A stretch of 64,000 nt of DNA, from contig JARGNZ010000007.1 of the NCBI GenBank assembly GCA_029209985.1, forward strand, positions 62,001 to 126,000, read 5' to 3'. The stretch is from Parvibaculaceae bacterium. Lineage in GTDB: Bacteria; Pseudomonadota; Alphaproteobacteria; Parvibaculales; Parvibaculaceae. The stretch's first letter is position 1, and every line of letters begins with the position of its first letter. Made by a program: the position numbers and the translations under genes. Below, in pieces: positions 9,423 to 22,048 of this stretch. The notes beneath the pieces are model-generated. The model was not told the origin of the DNA. It worked only from the letters and a program-made list of their open reading frames with translations, and searched no databases.

Positions 9423-9438
9423 TACGCTCTTCTCCTTA

Positions 9439-9490
9439 TTCCGGTTATACCTCCGCAGGGGTGTGGTCTCTCACATGAGAAACACCGGAA
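9439..9490 (-). promoter_or_regulatory. Hairpin in the rpsB leader, candidate S2 autoregulatory element
   Basis: On the minus strand the 5' leader of rpsB can fold into one stepped hairpin. Outer arms are TTCCGGT (9439-9445) and ACCGGAA (9484-9490), an inner GGTGT/ACACC stem and a TCTC/GAGA stem sit above, and a second SD-like GGAGG lies in the internal loop. The hairpin ends directly before the true ribosome-binding site. S2 represses its own operon in other bacteria; that this hairpin does so is inference from position. Confidence 0.4.
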
Positions 9491-9586
9491 GCGACAGGAT
9501 CTATGAGGGCCAAAATGACCTGATCAAGCCGCATCCCTGCGTGTGTGATGAGGCGGGTTTTAGGCGCTGATTGGTGGAAAAGCAAG

Positions 9587-15667: not shown

Positions 15668-16987
15668 TTATGCCCCAAGACGGGTTAACGCTTCTTGTGT
15701 GCTGACTTCAACCTTTTCACCGGTGGCGCGATTTTTCAGCTCAACTACGCCATTTTTAAGGCCGCGTGGCCCCACGACCAATTGCCACGGCAGGCCGATC
15801 AAATCCATGGTTGAGAACTTGGCACCAGCGCGCTCATTGCGATCATCATAGAGCACATCAACGCCAGCCGATTGCAGCTTGGCGTAAATGTCAGCGCATG
15901 CGGCGTCTGTGGCTTCATCACCGGATTTCAGATTGATCAAGCCCACATCATAGGGGGCCACGGATGCTGGCCAGATGATGCCGTTTTCGTCGTGACTGGC
16001 TTCAATGATGCCGCCGAGCAAACGCGAAACGCCGATGCCATAAGAGCCACCGTGCACGGGGGCTGGTTTGCCATCTGGCCCTGCGACCACGGCATTCATG
16101 GCTTCTGAATATTTAGTGCCAAAGTAGAAAATATGTCCCACTTCAATGCCGCGTGCAGACAAGCGTTTATCTTCTGGCACTTGGGCCTCAAAGGCAGCTG
16201 CATCGTGCATTTCATCGGTGGCGGCATACATATCCGTCCGTTTACTGACGAGCGGCATGAGGTCGCTTTGATAGTCGATGTCATCGCCGGGCACATCCAT
16301 GTCCACCAGATCAGAGTGGCAGAACACTTCTGACTCACCGGTTTCTGCAAGGATGATAAATTCGTGCGACAAGTCCCCGCCAATAGGCCCCGTGTCTGCG
16401 GCCATGGGAATGGCTTTAAGGCCTAAGCGATTGAAGGTGCGCAGGTAAGCGATGAACATGCGGTAGTAAGATTTGCGGGCGCTGGCCTCATCCACATCAA
16501 ATGAATAGGCGTCTTTCATGAGGAACTCACGGCCCCGCATGATGCCGAAACGGGGGCGGATTTCGTCGCGGAACTTCCACTGAATATGATAGAGGTTCAT
16601 CGGCAGGTCTTTGTAGGACCGCACGTCGCGCCGGAAAATGTCGGTGACCATTTCTTCGTTGGTGGGACCATAGAGCATGTCGCGATCATGGCGATCGACG
16701 ATGCGCAGCATTTCTTTGCCGTAGCCGTCATAGCGCCCAGACTCTTTCCACAGGTCAGCAGATTGCAGCGTTGGCATGAGCAGCTCAACCGCCCCTGCTC
16801 TGTCCATTTCCTCGCGCACAATTGCTTCGATTTTACGCAGAACCCGCAAGCCCAACGGCAACCAGCTATAAATACCCGCGCTGTTTTGGCGGATCATGCC
16901 CGCGCGCAACATCAACCGGTGGGAGACGATTTGTGCTTCAGCCGGATTTTCTTTGAGGACGGGGAGGAAAAAATTGGTAAGACGCAT
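15668..16987 (-). CDS. proS: Prolyl-tRNA synthetase (short alphaproteobacterial form)
   Basis: Class II aminoacyl-tRNA synthetase charging tRNA-Pro. The start [34 protein letters not shown] and motif 2 region ([25 protein letters not shown]) and [18 protein letters not shown] (motif 3) are typical. At 439 aa it lacks the large INS editing insertion of the E. coli enzyme, the form common in alphaproteobacteria. The C-terminal anticodon-binding domain covers roughly 345-439. lolC follows after 89 bases. Confidence 0.96.
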
Positions 16988-17201: not shown

Positions 17202-18911
17202 TTAGTCGGATACGGGGGCCGCAGCACTTTGAGACGTTTTTTGCGATGAAATGCCTTTTGGCAGGCTCATCAGATACGCCTTCAAATCCACATCTGGGGC
17301 CTTTTCCAGCCCTTTGCCGGAGGTGATGCTGTAGGGCCCGTTTTCCAGTTCGGCGACGGAATAGCCCATAAAGACATCATATGTGCGGTCCATCTGGTTC
17401 CGTAGATTGGCTTGCGCATGATACCAACGACGTTTGACGGGGCCGTCTGGGCAGGCGTTCAGCTCGGCTGGGTCGCTTGAACCCCAACGCCGGGCTACGC
17501 ACTGATAGGGATCAAAAGACATGTTGAAAAGACGCTGGATCACATCATCAACCGTTAGGGTGATCCGGCGGCCATTGTTACTGGTATAAGACGTTCGGCA
17601 GGCTTGGCTTTCTTCCTCATAGGCTTGCAACAAATCTGCGGCCACATCTGTGCCCTCATAAACCACGCTGCTGGTGCCTGCCTGCACAGATTCAACCAAC
17701 ATTTGAATGTGATCGCGCAGCTCTTTGAAATCGGTTTTCAACCGCGCGTCCCGCGACGGCGTTGAGTACATTTCCCAATATCCATATGTGCCGTAAATGT
17801 TGTCTGGCAGCTTAGCGGGGGGCGACATATTTTGGAGGCCATTGTTAATGGCGCGATCAACTGCGTCTTTGCGGTTTCTAATGTCGGTGCAAATATTACG
17901 CACCATTGAGCGCAACTCAGGCACCGGACGCAGAGTGAGGTCGCCAATCGCCATGGCAGCACGGAGATAGTGATAATAATCCAGCGCTTCGCCGTTATGG
18001 CTGTAGGTTGCCGTGCGCCATGTCGTACCGGGCTGCGGGTCTGTGCCCAGGTATTGAGCTAGTGAATAATCTGCGATCTCGCTGTTGCGTTTGGCTTGAA
18101 TGTGGCCGCCCACATAAACCCCTTGGGCGTTTTGGGTGGCATTGACCAGCTTAATGGGGCGCCAGTTTTTGAACCCTGTGCCAAGCGCTGGTTTGGTGCG
18201 CAGAAAATTGCGTCCATAAAACGAACGAGAAATAGAATTATCCGGGTGCGCGGAGATTGTCAGTATACGTCCTGTTTTGTCAACTCGCCACACCATGGCC
18301 ACATGGCCGTTCACATCATAGGCAATGGTGCCGGGGCGAATGGCGTCGCGGTTAAGTGCGGGGGAATACATATCGGTGAAATTGATCGGATCATCTGCAC
18401 TGGCGGAATGACGGAACATGGCGGTTGAGACAGAAGACCGCAAACCAAAAAGAATGGGGATGGCGGAGACGCCTGCGCTGGTGGCGGGCACATCATCGCG
18501 GGACACAACGCGGTTGCCATTGCGGGTGTAGCGGAAATCTCGGCTGCGGCCACTTGCAGGCACAACGCCGTTTTGATGGCTAAATGGCAGGCCATTTTTC
18601 CACGCGAAATAGGCGCGCAATAGATATGGCAAGTCGGCACAGTCTGAACGCCAACGCATCCGTTTAGGATCACTGGCGCGGTACGGATTAGACGGGCTTT
18701 TGAGGCACTCATCCATGGTCCAGCAATCTTCTGCGCCAAGCCCTTCGATGAAGTCGCTATAGGCCTGCTCATCAGCGGGGGACCATTCGGTTTTCGTGAT
18801 TGTCCACGGGGCGGTCCGCGCTTGGACGGGACTGCTGGAGAGCAAAACTATGGGCACTAATAATGCCGTTAGTAGTGCCCACATCATTAACCCTGTTGTC
18901 CGCTCACTCAT
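17202..18911 (-). CDS. Exported protein of unknown function with a cysteine-peptidase-like N-terminal half
   Basis: The 569-residue product (ATG at 18911; an in-frame GTG lies 12 bases earlier) starts with a signal peptide (residues about 1-32, ending SPVQA), so it is probably periplasmic or secreted. Two features suggest an NlpC/P60- or transglutaminase-like fold: a Cys in a helix-like segment (SDCADLPYLLRAYFAWKNG, Cys91) and a downstream NGHVAMVWRV segment (His203) followed by AHPDNS. The C-terminal half (about 300-569) is rich in charged residues with several Cys and no family I recognise. It stands alone upstream of proS. Peptidase activity is an inference from two motifs only. Confidence 0.75.
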   Translation of the reverse strand: MSERTTGLMMWALLTALLVPIVLLSSSPVQARTAPWTITKTEWSPADEQAYSDFIEGLGAEDCWTMDECLKSPSNPYRASDPKRMRWRSDCADLPYLLRAYFAWKNGLPFSHQNGVVPASGRSRDFRYTRNGNRVVSRDDVPATSAGVSAIPILFGLRSSVSTAMFRHSASADDPINFTDMYSPALNRDAIRPGTIAYDVNGHVAMVWRVDKTGRILTISAHPDNSISRSFYGRNFLRTKPALGTGFKNWRPIKLVNATQNAQGVYVGGHIQAKRNSEIADYSLAQYLGTDPQPGTTWRTATYSHNGEALDYYHYLRAAMAIGDLTLRPVPELRSMVRNICTDIRNRKDAVDRAINNGLQNMSPPAKLPDNIYGTYGYWEMYSTPSRDARLKTDFKELRDHIQMLVESVQAGTSSVVYEGTDVAADLLQAYEEESQACRTSYTSNNGRRITLTVDDVIQRLFNMSFDPYQCVARRWGSSDPAELNACPDGPVKRRWYHAQANLRNQMDRTYDVFMGYSVAELENGPYSITSGKGLEKAPDVDLKAYLMSLPKGISSQKTSQSAAAPVSD

Positions 18912-19038
18912 ACTTAACCCCACCGGCTTTTAAGCCACAGCAATTGCCCCATCTAGGCCAGCAGGGTGCGGATGGGAGAGGAATTTGTCAACAAAGTCAG
19001 GGGAAACTCGCGTGGTTATCGCGAAAAAGTGAGTGCTT

Positions 19039-19512
19039 CTAACCGCGACCGTGGCGTTTGGCACACGCTTTGGCAAGGGCTGCGCGGTGCAACCAGATGC
19101 GGTTTTCACCATTTAAGGTTACCTCACCCAGCACCGGGTCAAATGTAACCGTTGTGGCGACAAACTCGGATTGCTCCAAATTAGGCCGATCTGACAAGGG
19201 AGAAAAGACCACGTCAAATTCATAAATTGGAGACAAAAAATGCTCGGTGGCAAGTGCGGTCAATGACCCGCCGACATCTGCGCTGACAACGGGTGTGCCA
19301 TTGACGCTGACGCCGGGTTGATAAGCCACATCGGGACTGGCCATATGATCGGCTAAGAACTGACACGTGCTTTCACTGATATCGACAATATGTGGCTTTT
19401 GGCGGGAACCTTGTTCCAAGATGGACCCCGTAACCAACGGCATTTCTGCCGGCTGACCGTTTCCCACAAAGCCTGCCAATATGGCGGCGACTAATTGTCC
19501 TGAACCATTCAT
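19039..19512 (-). CDS. Hypothetical protein
   Basis: A 157-residue frame from the ATG at 19512, 127 bases upstream of the cysteine-peptidase-like gene and on the same strand. No signal peptide or membrane segment is clear. The middle (VAYQPGVSVNGTPVVSADVGG) looks like beta strands, and the C-terminus is basic (ENRIWLHRAALAKACAKRHGRG). I do not recognise a family. The sequence has normal codon texture for the region and no competing frame, which supports it being a gene. Confidence 0.6.
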   Translation of the reverse strand: MNGSGQLVAAILAGFVGNGQPAEMPLVTGSILEQGSRQKPHIVDISESTCQFLADHMASPDVAYQPGVSVNGTPVVSADVGGSLTALATEHFLSPIYEFDVVFSPLSDRPNLEQSEFVATTVTFDPVLGEVTLNGENRIWLHRAALAKACAKRHGRG

Positions 19513-19694
19513 GTCCACAGGCTACCGCAAAGCTGTTAATGCCTCGTTTAGCTCAATAAGAAATTTTCGGCTCTATCTAAGTGAATTTTAATCAAATTCC
19601 ATGCCCTAAAACACGCTTCTTACCCCTTGAAAAATGAATAACTTCCCTTACGTTTTCTGCCATTTTTATTGACCTGACAAAAACTCATTTTTGA

Positions 19695-19725
19695 TTGGAC
19701 AGGCATAGTGTGAATGCCCTATATT
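19695..19725 (+). promoter_or_regulatory. Candidate promoter for the 19731-19901 small RNA
   Basis: A sigma-70-like pair: TTGGAC (19695-19700) and CTATAT (19719-19724) with an 18-base spacer, or TATATT one base later. Transcription would start about 19731, just before the first hairpin. The -10 is reasonable, the -35 is a fair match; this is inference from sequence. Confidence 0.45.
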
Positions 19726-19730
19726 CTCCT

Positions 19731-19901
19731 TAATAAAGAGGGGCCGCGTTTAAGTGGCTCAGGTTTAGGGAGGCAATCTGACTTGATACGACCCACATCA
19801 CGTATCAAGGACAGTGTCGCAAGACACTTTCAGCAGTAATTGCTCAATAATAATAAAAAAATACTCAGCAAGGCCGCGGGAACGCGCCTTGCTTTCTTTT
19901 T
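19731..19901 (+). ncRNA. Candidate trans-acting small RNA with five hairpins and an intrinsic terminator
   Basis: About 170 bases on the plus strand with no open frame or downstream plus-strand gene. Hairpins in order: GGGCCGC/GTGGCTC (19741-19760, with G-U pairs); TCAGGTT/AATCTGA (19759-19781) exposing a purine-rich loop TAGGGAGGC; CTTGATACG/CGTATCAAG (19782-19809, 9 perfect pairs, 10-base loop); AGTGTC-GCAA-GACACT (19813-19828, GNRA tetraloop); then an A/U-rich single strand (about 19845-19865), and a terminator stem AGCAAGGCCGCG/CGCGCCTTGCT (19867-19893) with TTCTTTTT. The first two hairpins share two bases. The A/U tract before the terminator is the usual Hfq-binding arrangement. I cannot match it to a named RNA family. 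Confidence 0.65.
19867..19901 (+). terminator. Intrinsic terminator of the candidate small RNA
   Basis: GC-rich stem AGCAAGGCCGCG (19867-19878) and CGCGCCTTGCT (19883-19893) with a one-base bulge, GGAA loop, followed by TTCTTTTT on the plus strand. It is directional: the opposite strand has an A-rich stretch in place of the T-run. Confidence 0.75.
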
Positions 19902-19951: not shown

Positions 19952-19972
19952 CAAAGCCCCAAAGGGGCTTTG
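19952..19972 (-). terminator. Terminator downstream of the DUF1467 gene
   Basis: Perfect arms CAAAGCCCC (19952-19960) and GGGGCTTTG (19964-19972) with an AAA loop; on the minus strand the stem is followed by TTTGTTT. It would end the transcript running from nuo/birA/RNase J into the DUF1467 gene. Confidence 0.6.
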
Positions 19973-20002: not shown

Positions 20003-20275
20003 CTACCGCTCACTAAACGTTGGAAAGAACGGCACGTCCGCCAAGGTCAGGCCGGAATACATCACCGTCCAATAGAACGCGGCAAAAATGACCAGTGACA
20101 CCCCGGTCGTGACGAGCAGTTTCAATTGAATATGTGGGTTTTCAGGCGCACTGCCCCGCGTGCCCGCATTATACGCGGCGGAATCTTCGTGCGGTTTCAC
20201 CCCGAAAGGCAACACCACGAATAAGGTTAGCCACCAAAAAATGACGTAAATTGCCATTCCAGCTCCGAAGCTCAT
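20003..20275 (-). CDS. DUF1467 family small membrane protein
   Basis: A 90-residue protein with two membrane helices (about 5-27 and 55-80) and the family phrase FWWLTLFVVLPFGVKPHEDSA. DUF1467 proteins are known mostly from alphaproteobacteria and usually sit between RNase J and proS, as here. Function unknown. It starts 69 bases downstream of the RNase J stop and is probably co-transcribed. Confidence 0.9.
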   Translation of the reverse strand: MSFGAGMAIYVIFWWLTLFVVLPFGVKPHEDSAAYNAGTRGSAPENPHIQLKLLVTTGVSLVIFAAFYWTVMYSGLTLADVPFFPTFSER

Positions 20276-20344: not shown

Positions 20345-22048
20345 TTATTCATTTTCCAAACGGGAGACAGCGACTTCAACGGCTGTCTTTTTACCCCATT
20401 GGCGGCGGACAACGCCGCGCACACCGCGCCGTACAAGCTCGGCAACAACGCTATCCTCTTTACGCTTGCGCAGGGGCAAACGGTCCAATGTGTCATCAAT
20501 CGCATCGTGGATCAGGTTGATAAACTTTTCACCCGCCCCATCCCGCTCTGGCAAACCCATCACACGGATTTGTGGCTGGCCTAAATCGTGGCCTTTTTCA
20601 TCCAACACAATCGCGACAAAAACCGCGCCGCCAACAGCAAGACGACGCCGGGCTTGGATGGACGGATCCCAAGAAGGGATCAGCACGTCACCGTCCAGAT
20701 ACAAACGCCCGCTTTCTACTTCTGCAAAAATTTCTGGCTCGCCGGGGGCAAGGCGTAGCATGTCACCATTGGTCAGCAAGGCAGAATGCGGAACCTGTAG
20801 CTCGTCTGCCAAGTCGGCGTGCTCCAGCAGATGTCGGGCTTCACCATGCACGGGCACTGCAATCTGGGGCTTAATCCACCCATACATCTGCGTCAGCTCA
20901 CCACGACAGGGGTGGCCGGACACGTGCACCATATGATCTTTTTCGGTGATGATCCGAATGCCGCGTTCGGCTAATTGGTTTTGCAACTCATAGATTGCCA
21001 CATCATTGCCCGGAATGATTTTGGAGGAAAAGATCACAGTATCCCCCTCTTCCATGACCACTTGTGGGTGGGTATCATTGGCAATGCGAGAGAGCGCGGC
21101 CCGTGGCTCCCCTTGAGATCCCGTGCAGAGATAGAGCACTTTGTGCTTTGGCAATTTACGCGCTTCATCATCGCGCAGGAAAGGCGGGATGTTCTCGAAA
21201 TAGCCACATGCCCGCGCCGCAGAAATGATGCGGTGCATAGAACGCCCTGCCAAAACCACATGACGTCCACATTCTTCGGCAGCGCGTATGATGCTTTCCA
21301 AGCGCGCAGCATTGGAGGCAAAGGTGGTGATGGCCACGCGGCCTGTTAGCTCTGGTAAAAGCTGTTTCAACGTGGCCGCAACTTCGGCCTCAGAACCTGA
21401 CGTGCCGGGGCTAAACACATTGGTGCTGTCACACACCATGGCCAAGACGCCCTCTTCACCGATTTGGCCCAAGCGGGTGATGTCGATGTCTTCCCCCAAT
21501 TGCGGGGCTTCGTCGATCTTCCAATCGCCAGTATGAAACACCATGCCGAGCGGAGTGCGGATGGCAAGGGCATTTGGCTCCAAAATTGAATGGGTCAATG
21601 TGACCAGCTCAATATCGAAGGGACCAATTTGGAAACGGTCGCTTAAATCCACAATATGAAACGGCACCACATCATCAAGGCCAGCTTCAATAAGCTTTCC
21701 CTTGACCAGTTCAGCTGTGAAAGGTGTGGCGTAGACAGGACACTTCAACCGAGGCCACAGATGGGCCACGGCACCAATGTGATCTTCATGACCGTGAGTT
21801 AACACGATCGCCAAAAGATCATCGACATGCTCTTCAATAAAAGCAGGATCGGGCATGATGACATCAACGCCAGGTGTGCGCCCGTCGGAAAACGTCACGC
21901 CCAGATCAACCATCAACCACTGTCGTTTTTTAGCTGGCCCATACCCAAACAAATTTAGGTTCATGCCTATTTCGCCCGTGCCGCCTAGGGGCAGAAAAAC
22001 CAACTCATCGCCTTTTTGAGCCGTAGTCATTTTTTTTGTTTCTTTCAT
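20345..22048 (-). CDS. rnj: Ribonuclease J
   Basis: Metallo-beta-lactamase/beta-CASP ribonuclease with 5' exonuclease and endonuclease activity in RNA processing and decay. The zinc motif THGHEDHIGA places His85, His87, Asp89 and His90; HTGDWKID and FASNAARLESI continue the core, and the beta-CASP part includes LCTGSQGEPRAALSRIA and VHVSGHPCRGEL. Length 567 aa is normal. A second ATG at 22030 is an alternative start (561 aa). It lies 43 bases after birA. Confidence 0.94.
   Translation of the reverse strand: MKETKKMTTAQKGDELVFLPLGGTGEIGMNLNLFGYGPAKKRQWLMVDLGVTFSDGRTPGVDVIMPDPAFIEEHVDDLLAIVLTHGHEDHIGAVAHLWPRLKCPVYATPFTAELVKGKLIEAGLDDVVPFHIVDLSDRFQIGPFDIELVTLTHSILEPNALAIRTPLGMVFHTGDWKIDEAPQLGEDIDITRLGQIGEEGVLAMVCDSTNVFSPGTSGSEAEVAATLKQLLPELTGRVAITTFASNAARLESIIRAAEECGRHVVLAGRSMHRIISAARACGYFENIPPFLRDDEARKLPKHKVLYLCTGSQGEPRAALSRIANDTHPQVVMEEGDTVIFSSKIIPGNDVAIYELQNQLAERGIRIITEKDHMVHVSGHPCRGELTQMYGWIKPQIAVPVHGEARHLLEHADLADELQVPHSALLTNGDMLRLAPGEPEIFAEVESGRLYLDGDVLIPSWDPSIQARRRLAVGGAVFVAIVLDEKGHDLGQPQIRVMGLPERDGAGEKFINLIHDAIDDTLDRLPLRKRKEDSVVAELVRRGVRGVVRRQWGKKTAVEVAVSRLENE

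Follow-up and report, generated by a model that had tools for sequence, protein, structure and literature searches.

Almost all Alphaproteobacteria have the small RNA MmgR/αR8 (Rfam suhB/MmgR, RF00519), which, in the handful of species examined, governs carbon storage and transport. αr9/SmrC9 has been known in rhizobia since about 2007, with no function assigned. To our knowledge, CrfA is the only known αR8 sponge, and it was reported from a single species in 2025. How does CrfA act on its partners? In Caulobacter crescentus, RIL-seq, probing and compensatory mutations (Vogt et al. 2025, PMC12559287) demonstrated that a G/A-rich stem-loop of CrfA pairs with SisA-D, the siblings of αR8. CrfA lowers SisA-D levels, freeing their mRNA targets (PMC12559287). 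The published start (TSS) of crfA is at 3,781,500 (PMC5988900). As for αr9 (also SmrC9, SmelC289 or Sra32; RF02343, Rhizobiales), Northern blots detected SmrC9 in S. meliloti between SMc01933 and proS (SMc01933< smrC9< proS>; PMC2573895), and the SmelC289 relatives, with one exception, adjoin a prolyl-tRNA synthetase gene (PMC3927594). The literature searched, which covered few subscription journals, yielded neither a function for αr9 nor a link between αr9/SmrC9 and MmgR.

How does the locus described here compare with these systems? The whole stretch of DNA analysed (the window) is 64 kb of a Parvibaculaceae genome, and it carries a predicted sRNA gene on the plus strand (Table 1). The original prediction had placed a structured RNA in a gap between two oppositely facing minus-strand gene groups. 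Both flanking groups are indeed minus-strand groups, and the RNA between them has the antisense orientation; ‘oppositely facing’ was wrong. The promoter-like pair proposed at the same time is there, and its arrangement recurs upstream of the homologues as a GTGAC(A)/TGGACA ... TATA(G/T)T layout; the -10 is TATA-type in 34 of the 39. The start of the sRNA was placed from the position of the -10 element and from the alignment to the αr9 5' end. The locus appears to be an independently transcribed sRNA gene, and we infer that it is transcribed in this organism. The rnj-DUF1467 gene group has a strong terminator (19952-19972, minus strand), tail to tail with that of the sRNA. On the other side, two minus-strand genes separate the sRNA from proS; these ORFs (19039-19518 and 17202-18923) are without any Pfam family. 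The 159-aa ORF of the two is kept in the sister species, and so is the start of the 573-aa one, at which point the contig of the sister species stops. Elsewhere in the window, an rpsB sRNA (RF01815) scores 45.7 bits, barely over the cut-off, at 9428-9545 on the minus strand.

Table 1. Positions in the window of the sRNA gene, its parts and the neighbouring marker genes
Feature	Positions	Strand	Basis or remark
proS (prolyl-tRNA synthetase), left-hand syntenic marker	15668-16987	-	tRNA-synt_2b + HGTP_anticodon
Promoter-like pair TGGACA (-35) / TATATT (-10), 18-nt spacer	19696-19725	+	equivalents upstream of homologues
sRNA gene, predicted, about 169 nt	19733-19901	+	ends at terminator T-tract
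Hairpin 1, GGGCCGC / GTGGCTC, 3' arm overlapping the αR8-pairing box	19741-19760	+	centroid structure
αR8/MmgR-complementary box GTGGCTCAGGTTTAGGGAGG	19754-19773	+	20 consecutive pairs (4 G-U) with own-genome MmgR
Hairpin 2 (weak), TCAG/CTGA, TTTAGGGAGGC in loop	19759-19762/19778-19781	+	sequence
Hairpin 3, 9-bp perfect stem, loop ACCCACATCA	19782-19809	+	sequence + fold
Hairpin 4, GCAA (GNRA) tetraloop	19813-19828	+	sequence + fold
Small hairpin AGCA/TGCT	19832-19844	+	
A/U tract AATAATAATAAAAAAATAC, candidate Hfq site	19845-19864	+	sequence only
Intrinsic terminator GCAAGGCCGCGGGAACGCGCCTTGC	stem 19868-19892, then T-tract to 19901	+	
DUF1467 gene, right-hand syntenic marker	20003-20275	-	PF07330, 89.9 bits
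Ribonuclease J gene, syntenic marker	20345-22048	-	PF22505, 140.6 bits

The region 19731-19901 folds with -59.7 kcal/mol (z = -5.8), and none of 200 shuffles was as good. The ordered plus-strand hairpins of the original prediction are present, but the second is weak: it has 4 bp and is missing from both the minimum-energy and the centroid structures, and the Shine-Dalgarno-like (SD-like) box is ~50-80% unpaired in the fold ensemble. The predicted GNRA tetraloop, 9-bp perfect stem and terminator with its T-run were all confirmed, and so was the A/U tract as a sequence feature. Are the stems kept in relatives, a check that the original prediction had named? The sister species retains the RNA at 96% identity together with its hairpins, and between the two species hairpin 4 has changed in a compensatory manner (AGUGUC/GACACU in the window, AAUGUC/GACAUU in the sister). 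The terminator stem is kept with compensatory pairs in relatives (g5), within which some middle-hairpin pairs are compensatory too. Between genera MAFFT does not align the middle hairpins correctly, and our claim of structural covariation is therefore limited to the g5 terminator, a few g5 middle-hairpin pairs and hairpin 4 in g1. The 5' hairpin, TAGGGAGG and the terminator are kept in genus g3; the hairpin 3 loop motif CCACATCA is found in the g1 sister species and in six of the seven g3 species, the remaining one having TTCACATCA.

Of the 40 genomes in the GTDB family, 39 yielded the neighbouring DUF1467 protein, and every one of these 39 has the RNA beside DUF1467 on the opposite strand. 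A covariance model built from family members, with the window's genus left out, matches the window RNA at 19733-19900 (52.7 bits, E 2.5e-9) as well as 16 other loci of the class at E < 0.02, all on the expected strand; these E-values are rough owing to a shortened calibration. The same synteny and strand recur in about 15 more families, and among 40 regions downstream of DUF1467 in other families many have a GGCCCAAGTTTAGGGAGGAA-like box and a terminator opposite the DUF1467 strand. Across families the box is the most conserved part, and the middle hairpins vary between genera. The plasmid collection and viral contigs searched gave no match. The locus is a genuine small-RNA gene with wide conservation.

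Which RNA is it? The original prediction did not recognise the family and suggested an Rfam scan. In agreement, the scan of the window RNA returned no family at cut-off, and a permissive scan gave chance matches only. RF02343 does not match the window RNA. Among the family relatives its best score is 27.1 bits (L025) against a gathering cut-off of 45 bits, and this weak score is not relied on alone because the noise of RF02343, seen as scattered matches in class and order genomes, control genomes included, reaches 20-29 bits. The window RNA is therefore, by Rfam's own cut-off, not an RF02343 member. In the reverse direction, the αr9 of Sinorhizobium saheli (L225, 1518-1649), which scores 139.3 bits with RF02343, is matched by the family-relatives model, containing no αr9, with 26.7 bits and a rough E of 0.0018. 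Like the window RNA, αr9 has proS on one side and DUF1467 on the other, on the opposite strand. The order in S. saheli (rnj< mce< DUF1467< [αr9 >] proS<) and its strands are those of the window except for mce and the window's two extra genes before proS. Both RNAs have several hairpins and a terminator, an A-rich start and a box (AAGUCUUGGGAGGA in αr9, AGGUUUAGGGAGG in the window RNA), whereas their middle hairpins are unlike. Since position, strand, terminator, box and model agree, we regard the window RNA as a positional counterpart of αr9 that has diverged, within what would be a superfamily wider than the Rfam model. The earlier thought that it might be a known alphaproteobacterial RNA was half right: it is related to αr9/SmrC9 by position and model, but it stays below the RF02343 cut-off.

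And what does the box pair with? It contains AAGUCUAGGGAGGA, the reverse complement of the exposed MmgR (αR8) core GUUUCCUCCCUAGACUU, and the MmgR of the same genome lies at G000:C1:137921-137995 (L098). The 20 bp of uninterrupted pairing compare with 9.7 +/- 1.3 bp (maximum 15) for 500 dinucleotide-shuffled RNAs, and the next best αR8 site in the 64-kb window, the space searched, reaches 14 bp. RF00519 matches in every family genome, over the cut-off in 38 of 40, and the run between box and MmgR spans 13-28 consecutive bp in all 37 family genomes with both RNAs. The box is thus complementary to the αR8 core UUUCCUCCCU beyond chance. In the three Rhizobiales genera examined (Sinorhizobium, Bradyrhizobium, Microvirga) the pairing has one central mismatch. 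The full duplex needs partial opening of hairpin 1 and of the αR8 terminator stem. The original prediction had proposed that an SD-like loop sequence might bind CU-rich targets; a CU-rich partner does exist in αR8/MmgR, by predicted pairing, but the paired stretch extends beyond the loop. In the window genome there is also a second, 8-nt complementarity between 19833-19840 and the MmgR 5' end (GCAGUAAU / AUUACUGC).

The resemblance to αR8 in reverse has a consequence for annotation. RF00519 has no match on the window RNA locus, and this RNA does not belong to αR8. In relatives, the Rfam scan reported suhB/MmgR (RF00519) on the strand opposite the RNA; a second gene there was rejected, as the box is the reverse complement of the αR8 core. 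RF00519 at times scores on this strand because the 5' half of the relatives' RNA resembles antisense αR8. At L114 (G019:C3:34268-34341, plus strand) the opposite strand scores 42.0 bits, over the cut-off, and this is an antisense false positive which annotators should expect at this locus.

The two RNAs co-vary in trans. With αR8 sequences added from further genomes, 23 cognate pairs were obtained; their score is 468.0 against 442.7 +/- 4.4 for re-paired sets (0/20,000). Taking one genome per lineage (n = 16), the pair count is 322.5 against 304.5 +/- 4.0 (2/20,000) and the duplex energy -1069 against -964 +/- 19 kcal/mol (0/20,000); in all three comparisons the species tree was not modelled, and re-pairing permutations remove shared ancestry only in part. 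Within the family αR8 reads CUAGACUU or CUAAACUU, and a C in the box stands only opposite G, never opposite A. Column 9 of αR8 forms A-U, G-C or G-U but never A-C, and column 13 forms U-A, C-G or U-G but never C-A. Two-sided changes occur in family f60 (GGCCUGAG / CUCAGGCC), in f29 and f126 (GGCCCGAG / CUCGGGCC) and in Sinorhizobium (GCGGUCAAGUC / GACUUGACCGC).

Is the window RNA then CrfA under another name? Both have a G/A-rich segment complementary to the anti-SD core of αR8, and CrfA too is a trans-acting, stand-alone sRNA (PMC12559287). The locus of CrfA, however, is elsewhere than DUF1467-proS. Three Caulobacter genomes have no box RNA between these genes, proS following directly after DUF1467 (the gene order was read completely in one, L289). 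A CrfA-like RNA elsewhere in Caulobacter carries GGGGAGGAAACGCCC, whose length and end bases equal the published footprint G49-C63, and is a candidate CrfA. Within the αR8 core its strong hairpin pairs with the 5' half (GGGCGUUUCCUCCC), the window RNA with the 3' half, and the family-relatives model run on the CrfA-like loci (L295, L307, L316) found no match. Orthology was rejected on these grounds: different locus, different pairing register, no model match. The Caulobacter and rhizobial genomes were found with a composite protein query, the window DUF1467 joined to stretches of Caulobacter RsaA and rhizobial NodA, which served only to locate genomes; no conclusion rests on those protein matches.

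Given the precedent of CrfA, and since complementarity of the same kind extends further here, we favour the reading that the sRNA is a sponge (decoy) of αR8 in its own cell, with a probability of roughly 0.78. The box would pair with the exposed αR8 core CCUCCCUAGACUUGGGCC, the same anti-Shine-Dalgarno stretch with which αR8 binds mRNAs. αR8 would thereby be blocked and its decay probably accelerated, and its mRNA targets would be released. Hfq may assist the pairing. The pairing alone is silent on which RNA is the regulator, and the direction proposed follows the proven CrfA-SisA case.

Could the action be reverse or mutual, with αR8 silencing or destroying the RNA, which in turn would regulate mRNAs through the hairpin 3 loop CCACATCA and the 5' hairpin? 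Caulobacter CrfA is itself reduced in level by SisA (PMC12559287), and parts other than the box are kept here, namely the CCACATCA loop in g1 and most of g3 and GAGGGAA..ACTA in g5. But the greater conservation of the box across families, with middle hairpins differing between genera, makes such a role unlikely. We consider it far less probable still that the box is a Shine-Dalgarno mimic for the 16S anti-SD or CU-rich RNAs generally, with αR8 incidental: GGGAGG does lie within the box and the αR8 core is itself anti-SD-like (PMC12559287), but the complementarity continues through GGCUCAGGUUUA, which an anti-SD does not explain, and the box follows lineage-specific changes of αR8. Hardly more credible is an ordinary trans-acting sRNA, for all that mRNA targeting is usual for stand-alone sRNAs, or a short ORF of 18 codons from a TTG at 19784, 10 nt after the SD-like box, as the αR8 pairing is well above chance; the ORF was rejected, since in the sister species a stop closes its frame after 9 codons and g5 has no counterpart.

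Returning to the sponge, where might it come from? A tentative and rather doubtful scenario is that sponge and αR8 are an ancient, co-evolving pair of sRNA and anti-sRNA dating from the early Alphaproteobacteria, the sponge being an inverted copy of αR8 that was lost in Caulobacter and replaced there by CrfA. On this account the 5' half of the RNA in the window's family (AAAGAGGGGCC...GGCTCAGGTTTAGGGAGG) would be antisense to αR8 as far as the U-tail, terminator stem included, and the seed could be masked along with the tail that binds Hfq. In genome G275, an apparently real αR8 copy with its own terminator (L166:3561-3638, minus strand; RF00519, 47.1 bits) is found 1.6 kb from DUF1467 and on the same strand as that gene, a placement that fits an inverted-copy origin.

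The sponge reading predicts a conserved αR8 sponge at one fixed locus in most lineages. With it, αr9/SmrC9 would gain a specific partner, MmgR, and a pairing site, both directly testable.
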